NCBI GenBank assembly: GCA_902571095.1
Contig: CACGAV010000007.1
Coordinates: 1 to 47,301 of the forward strand
Length of the DNA: 47,301 nt
Direction of reading: 5' to 3'
Source: an uncultured Pelagibacteraceae bacterium
Lineage (GTDB): Bacteria > Pseudomonadota > Alphaproteobacteria > Pelagibacterales > Pelagibacteraceae
Positions 12,847 to 38,416 of the stretch are shown here, in pieces (the first letter of the stretch is position 1; each line of letters opens with the position of its first letter). Under the pieces are notes generated by a model. It was not told the DNA's origin. It saw only the letters and a program-made list of their open reading frames with translations, and searched no databases. The position numbers and the translations under genes are program-made.

Positions 12847-12875
12847 TTTATCTAAATTTTGTGTTATAAAAAAAG

Positions 12876-13040
12876 AATAACGGGAGAGACTATTTAAATA
12901 TAGCGCCGAAGGAGCAACCTCCCTGGAAACTCTCAGGCAAAAGGACCGTTATTGTAATAACTCTGGAAAGCAGGCATAGCCTCACCGAAGGAGTAAATCT
13001 CTCAGGTTCTTAGACAGATGGGGAAAAAAAGGGTTATTAC
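12876..13040 (+). promoter_or_regulatory. Tandem glycine riboswitch upstream of gcvT
   Basis: Two consecutive glycine aptamers are recognisable. Aptamer 1 (about 12876-12953) has P1 AATAACG paired with CGTTATT, the GGGAGAGAC start, GCGCCGAAGGAGCAA, and the conserved ACTCTCAGGCAAAAGGACCG. Aptamer 2 (about 12954-13040) has P1 GTAATAAC paired exactly with GTTATTAC, the CTCTGGAAAGC start, CACCGAAGGAGTAA, and CTCTCAGG with AGACAGATGGGG. The last pair of aptamer 2 P1 ends 3 nt before the gcvT ATG. There is no room for a terminator, so control is more likely translational or through stability. In known cases glycine turns on the glycine cleavage genes. Confidence 0.95.
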
Positions 13041-36244: not shown

Positions 36245-37375
36245 ATGATTAATTCTCTAGGTATAAAAAAAACACCCAAAGATACAAAAATAGTAGTAGC
36301 CATGTCCGGAGGGGTCGACTCCTCTGTTGTTGCAGGATTAATGAAACAAGAAGGATATAATGTTACTGGTATAACTTTAAAACTTTATGACGATATTAAA
36401 CAAAGTGTAAAGGGCAGACAATGTTGCGCAGGCCAAGATATTATTGATGCCAAAAGAGTTTCAGAAAGCTTAGATATTGAACATAAAATCCTTTACTATC
36501 AAAAAAAATTTAAAAAAGAAGTAATAGACTCTTTTATTAATAGTTACACTTCAGGGGAAACCCCAATACCCTGTGTTCAGTGTAACCAAACTGTAAAATT
36601 TAGAGATCTATTTAAATTTTCGCAAGAGCTTAAAGCTGATGCCCTGGTTACAGGACACTATGTCTTAAGACGTGGTGATAATGGTGTTGGTAAAATGTAT
36701 CGAGCTGAAGATAAGGGTAGGGACCAAAGTTACTTTTTATTTAGTACCACTCAGAAACAATTGGATTTTTTAAGATTCCCTTTAGGAACGATTAATAAAA
36801 TTGAGACAAGAAAAATTGCGGATGACTTAAAACTTAATGTGGCTAAGAAACCTGATAGTCAGGATATTTGTTTTGTTCCGAACGGAGATTATGCATCTGT
36901 TATAGCTAAATATAAGCCAGAGTCTTTTAAAAAAGGTAATATTTATGATTTAAAAGGTAATATATTAGGTTCTCACGATGGAATAATAAATTATACAATA
37001 GGTCAAAGAAAAGGAATTAAAGTTTCAAGCAAAGACCCATTTTATGTAGTTGACATCAGAGCAAAAGATAATTCAATTGTTGTAGGACCTCAAGATAGTC
37101 TAAATATAAAGAAACTTTATTTAAGAAATATAAATCTGTTATCTGACGAAAAAGTTTTTGAGAAAAATATTTTTATCAAAGTCAGGTCTACTGGAAAACT
37201 TCTTAAGGCTAAAACTCAAATTAATAAAGACACCGCTATAGTAAATATTTTACAAGACGAGAAAGGAATTTCCCCAGGTCAAGCATGTGTTTTTTACTTA
37301 AAAGATGAAATAGGAGAAAGAGTCTTAGGGGGCGGTTGGATTGATAAAACGGAAAATAAAAATTTATCCACATAA
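36245..37375 (+). CDS. mnmA: tRNA-specific 2-thiouridylase MnmA
   Basis: 376 residues. The PP-loop [17 protein letters not shown] is near residues 18-34. [16 protein letters not shown] near 100-115 carries the first catalytic Cys, and [15 protein letters not shown] near 200-214 the second. VTGHYVLR and TIGQRKGI are further family landmarks. It adds sulfur to U34 of Lys, Glu and Gln tRNAs. The MnmA family here has the [15 protein letters not shown] segment typical of alphaproteobacteria. It is followed by a 247-bp gap that holds a structured RNA candidate. Confidence 0.95.
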
Positions 37376-37438
37376 TTAACACACCATCAAATAAAACAAC
37401 TACAAAGTGATGTTATTTTTTTTTTAATATGTTTTAAT

Positions 37439-37633
37439 GGAATTAATTGAGGGGCAACTCTCAACTGGCCAGTTAAGGAAAAACCGAGAGGTCCAAGCTT
37501 AACGGGCAGAAAGTTCTGCTGAGTAGCGCTAAAATAGCAGAGCGGGAGGTTCGGCGGTAGCGCCTAAAACGACGAACCAAAACTTAAGTCTGCGCACCGA
37601 AAGGTGTGTAGACATGGGTTTTTCAATTTTTCC
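37439..37633 (+). ncRNA. Candidate structured non-coding RNA, family not recognised
   Basis: A G/C-rich island in an AT-rich genome between mnmA and a convergent gene. Helices found by eye are: GTCTGCGCACC/GGTGTGTAGAC (588-598 with 603-613, offsets from 37000), an 11-bp stem with a GAAA tetraloop; GGTTCG/CGAACC (548-553 with 573-578) enclosing GGCG-GTAG-CGCC; TCTGCT/AGCAGA (515-520 with 536-541); GTTAAG/CTTAAC (472-477 with 498-503); and a possible closing stem GGAA..AATTGA with TCAATT..TTCC (439-450 with 623-633). Two pairs in the 11-bp stem are G-U only if the + strand is RNA, which fixes the strand. The stem is followed by GGGTTTTT, so it may also terminate. Hallmarks of tmRNA, RNase P, SRP RNA and tRNA were not found. 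Confidence 0.7.
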
Positions 37634-38321
37634 AAAATAAATAAGTTAAATAGTAAAATAAGATTACACCTATAAAATAATTCCATTCTAAAGCATGTTT
37701 AAAATGTACATTTCCACTTGTGACCACAATTGGTAAACTTGCTAATGCTACTACGACTAATATTGTAACTAATATTATTTTTAAAATTAAAACGTAATTA
37801 TTAATATAGTTTATTATAACGGATTTTAATTTAAAAAATCTGTATACCAATAAAGATTGAGCAACTACCTCAAAAATAATAAAACCTAAAAGGACAAATC
37901 TTCTAAAAAATTTATATAAATCATATTCAAATTTAACCCCTAAAAATATAGAATGAATTATTAAAAAAATAGCAGATAAAATACCAAAAGTTTTAAAAAG
38001 ATTATTCTTATTTTCTGAATTTTGGTACGAATTAATAATTTGATTTGTTTTTACCCAATATATTATTAACAACATCGATGAAAAAATCATTGAGGGTTTA
38101 AATATTAGATATGTCGGATAAGTTCTAGCTGTACGGCTTATTGATACTCCACCATCTAAATATGGAAAAGTAGGCTGGGACCGTCCAATTTGATCTACAA
38201 CAAATATTGTATTTTCTAAAAGGTGGTAATTTACAGAGATAAATAAGCACAGATTTATAGCTATAAATGGAATTAAAAAAATCCATAAACTCAACTTTTT
38301 AATTTGAGTTCTTAGTTCCAT
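37623..38321 (-). CDS. Six-segment membrane protein, possibly Frag1/DRAM/Sfk1-like
   Basis: 232 residues with about six hydrophobic segments (near 12-30, 72-90, 108-127, 139-162, 178-202 and 210-228). A conserved-looking external loop reads QPTFPYLDGGVSISRTARTY (residues 49-68), and the last helix is entered by VHFKHALEWNYFIG. Six helices, a Tyr-Pro first loop and a Glu-Trp before the last helix recall the Frag1/DRAM/Sfk1 fold, but the match is loose. It follows the 27-residue basic peptide gene on the same strand by 11 nt. Its stop falls at the possible closing stem of the RNA candidate. Confidence 0.55.
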   Translation of the reverse strand: MELRTQIKKLSLWIFLIPFIAINLCLFISVNYHLLENTIFVVDQIGRSQPTFPYLDGGVSISRTARTYPTYLIFKPSMIFSSMLLIIYWVKTNQIINSYQNSENKNNLFKTFGILSAIFLIIHSIFLGVKFEYDLYKFFRRFVLLGFIIFEVVAQSLLVYRFFKLKSVIINYINNYVLILKIILVTILVVVALASLPIVVTSGNVHFKHALEWNYFIGVILFYYLTYLFWKN

Positions 38322-38332
38322 TTTAGGACAGA

Positions 38333-38416
38333 CTATCTTTTCTTATTTCTTTTTCTAGCCCTTCTTTTCTTTGAGCCAATTTTACGTCTTCCTCTATGTT
38401 TTTTTGGGTAACCCAT
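38333..38416 (-). CDS. Very basic 27-residue peptide, possibly ribosome-associated
   Basis: A short frame of 27 codons starting MGYPKKHRGRRKIGSKK and ending with further Arg/Lys; 16 of 27 residues are Lys or Arg. Such composition in a clean ATG-to-stop frame is typical of tiny ribosomal proteins. bTHX (about 27 residues, also MG-K/R rich with a Gly-Lys-Ile step) and the COX24/AURKAIP1-like peptides come to mind, but neither matches convincingly. It lies 50 nt after accC and 11 nt before the membrane protein gene. Poly-A stretches can mimic Lys-rich frames, but the many Arg codons (AGA, CGT, AGG) argue against that. Confidence 0.55.
   Translation of the reverse strand: MGYPKKHRGRRKIGSKKRRARKRNKKR

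Follow-up and report, generated by a model that had tools for sequence, protein, structure and literature searches.

A complete IMES-2 RNA gene in a Pelagibacteraceae (SAR11) genome, with conserved upstream elements and predicted pairing between loops 3 and 4

The locus and identity of the RNA

The window, a stretch of 47,301 nucleotides from an uncultured Pelagibacteraceae bacterium, carries a GC-rich island between mnmA (last base of the stop codon at 37375) and a membrane protein gene in convergent orientation, whose stop codon begins at 37623 (Table 1). The GC content is 0.44 in the segment 37400–37599 vs. 0.19–0.33 in segments clear of the island, which a sequence-only reading of the same DNA had noticed. 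The plus strand folds with −76.7 kcal/mol (z = −6.5, equaled by none of 200 shuffles), and the minus strand reaches z = −2.9 (equaled by one of 200); hence, the plus strand is the likelier RNA strand, in agreement with that reading. The fold contains five hairpins, where at least five helices had been counted.

The RNA, earlier described as unidentified, is named by the Rfam covariance search (cmscan): IMES-2 (RF02035) is matched at 157.9 bits against a gathering cut-off of 54.7 (E = 1.3e-41), untruncated and over all 141 model positions. No Rfam or ARAGORN match to tmRNA, RNase P RNA, SRP RNA, or tRNA is found in the window, consistent with the earlier exclusion of these classes, and 6S RNA has no Rfam match there. 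Taken together, the locus almost certainly represents a complete stand-alone IMES-2 non-coding RNA gene in a Pelagibacteraceae (SAR11) host; its extent of about 180–195 nt on the plus strand bears out the discrete RNA of about 195 nt that had been proposed.

IMES-2 is described as transcribed and abundant in sea water; to our knowledge, it is a named RNA with no function known. Its discovery paper is reportedly Weinberg 2009, and Shi 2009 is said to be the metatranscriptome paper. The kind of RNA is thus already known, and the locus resembles the Rfam family in the match to the whole model, the same four hairpins, and the origin from marine bacteria; what is added here to the Rfam description is the host genomes, the gene ends (upstream elements and a terminator-like hairpin), and the pairing between loops 3 and 4.

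Table 1. Features of the IMES-2 locus (positions in the window)
Feature	Position	Strand	Details
mnmA (tRNA 2-thiouridine synthase), upstream neighbor	36245..37375	+	NCBIfam NF001138, 407 bits; Pfam PF03054
Two-box element TTATCCACA-TAATTAACA	37364..37381	+	overlaps last mnmA codons; conserved in upstream regions of relatives
CAAC-GTGAT element CAACTACAAAGTGATG	37397..37412	+	GTGATG near −35 of putative start; conserved in relatives
Extended −10-like element TG-T-TTTAAT	37430..37438	+	TGNTANNNT-like place near fixed distance from anchor
IMES-2 RNA core (RF02035)	37440..37580	+	157.9 bits, model positions 1–141
Hairpin P1	37447..37464	+	GCAA (GNRA) loop; 7 pairs, 100% of cells paired, 5 changed on both sides
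Hairpin P2	37465..37509	+	internal loop and GAGA-capped inner hairpin; 15 pairs, 13 changed on both sides
Hairpin P3	37513..37543	+	loop AGCGCU at 37525–37530; 8 pairs, all changed on both sides
Predicted kissing pairing of P3 and P4 loops	37525..37564	+	37526–37530 with 37559–37563; 5 bp in this genome and 6 bp in certain relatives
Hairpin P4	37548..37578	+	loop AGCGCC at 37559–37564; 9 pairs, 7 changed on both sides; G.A mismatch swapping to A.G
Terminator-like hairpin and U run	37579..37622	+	8 + 11 bp, GAAA loop; terminator scan, fold
Convergent membrane protein gene	37623..38321	−	weak Frag1-like match, Pfam PF10277, 19.8 bits (below cut-off of 30.3)

The four-hairpin core

Among 92 distinct sequences, 94.4% of cells of the nested structure are paired vs. 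at most 41.5% in slid controls, and 33 of the 39 nested pairs show changes on both sides, all counts being taken on an alignment fitted to that same structure. Compensating changes in relatives, by which the sequence-only reading had proposed that its RNA be checked, are thus strong. In addition to the standard pairs, the mismatch of P4 (37554 with 37572) is G.A in 80 and A.G in 12 of the 92 sequences; as far as the alignment goes, this swap is a co-varying, conserved non-canonical contact.

Pairing between loops 3 and 4

The loops of P3 and P4 very probably pair with each other, as judged by their covariation. In the 92 distinct sequences, 98.3% of the 460 cells of this pairing are paired (at most 64.3% in slid controls), 43 cells carry two-sided changes, and the covariation score is 0.292; each of these three values is reached by none of 500 shuffles. 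Two of the five measures, the number of pairs with a double change and the number of further pair types, are matched by 488 and 489 of 500 shuffles, respectively, due to the fact that both sides vary in only two of the five pairs; the other three have no second standard pair type. Both varying pairs show two-sided changes and stay intact throughout this set; by corrected mutual information they rank 6 and 11 among 9730 column pairs, the loop columns not having been supplied to the model as pairs.

The complementary loop hexamers occur in six loop 3/loop 4 combinations, swapped in both directions: AGCGCU/AGCGC, AGUACU/AGUACU, AGCACU/AGUGCU, AGUGCU/AGCAC, AGUUCU/AGAACU, and AGAACU/AGUUCU. On a tree built without the loop columns, the two varying pairs need at least five and seven changes, the tree itself being based on few columns, with 41 of 89 inner branches open and a long-branch warning. 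Exceptions are AUCGCU/AGCGCA, seen in 8 of 99 sequences, where one of the five loop pairs is lost, and one sequence with AGCGA as loop 4.

The pairing is missing from the structure line printed by cmscan for RF02035. The literature covered for IMES-1 and IMES-2, for the Rfam numbers, and for small RNAs with a DnaA box mentions neither the loop pairing nor the upstream elements described below, and the term IMES is absent from the available portions of the text of PMC5069720, PMC2704228, and PMC2864571; since the discovery paper fell outside this scope, we claim no priority for either.

The kissing contact might lock both hairpins into one unit or, alternatively, join two molecules, the covariation fitting both equally well. 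Among known RNAs, the guanidine-II riboswitch (mini-ykkC), as described in PMC9094411, likewise has two neighboring hairpins with similar loops that kiss within one strand; it differs in that it is a leader that senses a ligand and its loops have the motif ACGR, whereas IMES-2 has five or six loop pairs and looks like a stand-alone gene. OLE, ROOL, and GOLLD are homo-oligomers with kissing loops among the stabilizing, covariation-supported contacts (PMC12286853); there they are described as large ornate RNAs, and an oligomer of IMES-2 would be hypothetical.

The covariation also bears on the possibility that IMES-2 is an Hfq-independent antisense regulator, its loops pairing with mRNAs. Such a role would be compatible with loops of 13–15 nt bearing conserved letters and with a stand-alone gene preceded by conserved upstream elements; on the other hand, the loop letters change in step, as expected if the loops pair together and not with a fixed target, and Hfq is found in none of 25 genomes (see below), so that we consider this role unlikely, albeit the least unlikely of the alternatives.

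Upstream elements and the start of the RNA

Three elements precede the core, and IMES-2 is likely to have its own regulated promoter, a conclusion drawn from the conservation of these elements; the start of the RNA would then lie at about 37440–37443. The two-box pattern TTATCCACA-nn-ATTCACA reaches a score of 12 or more out of 16 in 154 of the 158 distinct regions upstream of IMES-2 vs. 1.3% of shuffles, the motif having first been read off the same sequences it was scored on and the 158 regions being related by descent and not independent. In the second element, the letters GNGAT served as the alignment anchor and are fixed by construction; on the CAAC side, the first C is present in 158 of 158 regions and the next A in 153. 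The distance between the two-box element and GNGAT is bimodal, 41–43 (72 regions) or 49–53 (84), with 87–88 in two regions and none at 44–48. The two main spacings differ by nearly one turn of the helix, hinting at a bound protein whose orientation would be fixed.

Downstream of the conserved elements lies an extended −10-like sequence, TGnTAnnnT. In 144 of 158 regions, the best TGNTANNNT-like place lies 23–24 nt away from the anchor, a count biased by ties being broken towards 24, and 4 or 5 of its 5 letters are present in 155 of 158. The scan with the sigma-70 consensus lists no promoter at the putative start or at the −10-like site.

Within this genome, the sole match (at most one mismatch) of both the two-box and the CAAC-GTGAT element is the IMES-2 site. 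Across 22 genomes, of which 13 carry IMES-2, hits of the two-box pattern fall on the IMES-2 site in 5 and on other places 6 times (9 hits for the reversed control); the respective numbers for the CAAC-GTGAT pattern are 7 and 14 (control, 11), hence, off-site matches are near the chance level. That CAAC-GTGAT drives another RNA elsewhere was also considered and rejected, as ten of the 14 off-site matches, inspected by eye, show no obvious structured RNA. The elements are kept at differing genomic sites of IMES-2.

The first box here, TTATCCACA, is an exact instance of what we take to be the DnaA-box consensus, TTATNCACA, and a pair of boxes is conserved upstream of IMES-2. The exact TTATCCACA occurs less often than its reversed control, without any tight clustering, in six of six genomes; clustering at an origin, which would have supported DnaA, is not seen in these genomes, and control of IMES-2 by DnaA is at most a possibility.

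The 3′ end

The 11-bp stem with a GAAA loop reported by the sequence-only reading is found at 37588–37613 with both G-U pairs that it named, and is the inner part of the terminator-like hairpin. The terminator scan finds one candidate vs. 0.2 in shuffles. In relatives, all of the 142 distinct 60-nt tails that follow the core have fold energies below −12 kcal/mol, as do 8.7% of shuffles, and a T run, defined by pattern, is present in 77% of distinct tails. As the sequence varies while the strong fold stays, we take the GAAA stem together with the U-rich tail for a probable intrinsic terminator that tolerates changes of sequence. In contrast, the proposed closing stem of the two ends (37439–37450 with 37623–37633) is not conserved: the exact complement of the 5′ hexamer occurs in the 60-nt tail at only 6 of 168 loci, and the 3′ half of the stem belongs to the end of the coding sequence of the convergent gene. 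A 4-bp version of the stem does appear in the single-sequence fold.

Distribution and genomic context

An IMES-2 match over the cut-off is found in 31 of 61 relatives and in 204 of 297 genomes of the family, one match each; it is also present in 76 of the 152 genomes of the order with a completeness of 90% or more and a contamination of 5% or less. In the genus of the window, IMES-2 is present in 28 of 31 genomes, and the three without it also lack an mnmA match. Most of the 80 named records among the listed matches to an IMES-2 pattern are uncultured Pelagibacteraceae. No match over the cut-off is seen in the one-contig genomes G032, G069, G077, and G085 of genus g3, which as a guess is Pelagibacter proper (laxer scoring included), in the g5 and g15 genomes tried (five of them also under laxer scoring), or in 24 genomes of a second family. 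The absence may be an assembly gap in G011, G013, G026, G031, and G096, which also have no mnmA match; of these, G096 belongs to g12, whose IMES-2 RNA sits at another site.

Divergent IMES-2 copies were considered for the match-less genomes and rejected: among the weak matches, the five inspected by eye (L104–L108, 10–14 bits) look AT-rich and mostly coding. A purpose-built model, R1, yields no match in the listed genomes without IMES-2, a list that leaves 57 further match-less genomes aside. IMES-1 (RF02034), considered as a possible substitute, is found in none of 37 genomes lacking IMES-2, with controls equally without a match. Since some near-complete genomes lack IMES-2, the RNA is not needed by all SAR11, and the earlier argument that retention of so many non-coding bases in a compact genome implies function has to be weighed against the clean absence of the cassette from some near-complete relatives.

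Of the 172 IMES-2 loci, 86 are flanked by mnmA as well as by the membrane gene and 6 by mnmA only; in the other 80, neither is within reach, a class that may include loci truncated by the end of a contig. At the g3 loci read, IMES-2 lies between a recombinase gene (Phage_integrase by Pfam) and an ogt-like gene (named by eye). The cassette is found at several loci and is cleanly absent in some relatives: the same flanking genes at the g3 site are separated by 281 nt with it (L238) and by 6 nt without it (L246), and flanks are kept without it at L062, L079, L237, L246, and L251. L062 and L079 are at the mnmA site, where mnmA is directly followed by the membrane gene; the L079 genome is 8% contaminated.

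As the neighbors differ among genera, IMES-2 is not the leader of one gene. The view that it acts in cis, either on mnmA (as its terminator or as a structure at its 3′ end) or as a leader of the next gene, is scarcely probable: it would agree with the position directly downstream of mnmA, the terminator-like hairpin, and the ogt-like gene starting right after IMES-2 in g3, but not with the 80 loci having neither gene within reach, with the next gene being convergent and not on the same strand at the mnmA site, or with the occurrence of the upstream elements at other sites too.

Very unlikely, too, is a mobile cassette spread by the adjacent tyrosine recombinase. IMES-2 adjoins the recombinase gene in g3, several sites are occupied, and the cassette is present or absent as a whole; however, the recombinase is matched in 40 of 46 genomes (three of the matches being weak), both in carriers of IMES-2 and in genomes lacking it, which also rules it out as a partner gene, and in this genome it is located elsewhere. 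Carriage by phages is not supported either: no phage record matched, and two pattern matches in viral contigs are chance matches in coding DNA.

Possible function

The reading that in our opinion best explains the whole, tentatively and with slightly less than even confidence, is a complete stand-alone IMES-2 gene whose RNA, locked by its loops, acts in trans and binds a protein; the protein-binding role in trans, taken separately, is possible, with somewhat lower confidence. IMES-2 would be transcribed from its own upstream elements, presumably read by a dedicated activator, and the RNA would act in trans, as a scaffold or decoy for a protein. Scaffold or decoy appears most likely, because conservation concerns the shape and the loop–loop pairing rather than a seed free for antisense pairing, and because Hfq went undetected in the group. 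The Pfam model, which may miss a divergent Hfq, matches none of 25 genomes of the order (controls, 5 of 14), which speaks against classical antisense action of the Hfq type.

6S RNA is a stand-alone RNA similar in length to IMES-2 (its Rfam model, RF00013, has 187 positions), and IMES-2 might stand in for it, with RNA polymerase or some other housekeeping machine as its target. RF00013 is found, under strict filters, in none of 61 relatives of the order but in 5 of 14 named control genomes, including Caulobacter and Escherichia coli, and IMES-2 possesses its own upstream elements and terminator-like hairpin. However, IMES-2 has another architecture and no 6S Rfam match: instead of a long rod with a central open bubble, there are four short hairpins in a row. 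Furthermore, relatives lacking IMES-2 likewise give no 6S RNA match, and under such strict filters the absence of 6S RNA is weak evidence; overall, the stand-in role seems improbable.

A more elaborate variant of the protein-binding reading, which we regard as a long shot, is a small homodimer held by two reciprocal kissing contacts, each joining loop 3 of one molecule to loop 4 of its partner; this protein-binding particle would be expressed in dependence on replication or growth via a DnaA-like factor at the two-box element. The 4-nt link between P3 and P4 here, together with stems of 8–9 bp, would favor two swapped contacts over an intramolecular one. If the dimer exists, it would be an RNA-based global regulator for the apparently Hfq-less cells of SAR11, bacteria that rank among the most abundant in the ocean. 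For IMES-2 in general, the hosts, gene ends, upstream elements, loop contact, and pairs of near-complete genomes with and without the cassette make the function directly testable.

Other features of the window

Elsewhere in the window, the plus strand carries a glycine riboswitch aptamer (RF00504, 77.1 bits) at 12871–12958; the stretch at about 12960–13030, with no separate Rfam match, resembles by eye a second glycine aptamer half. Beyond the membrane protein gene, the minus strand at 38333–38416 encodes a very basic peptide of 27 residues, MGYPKKHRGRRKIGSKKRRARKRNKKR, that has no Pfam or NCBIfam match; it is near identical in many loci (19 distinct forms by pattern) and, as a guess, looks like an unannotated small protein of the ribosomal type.
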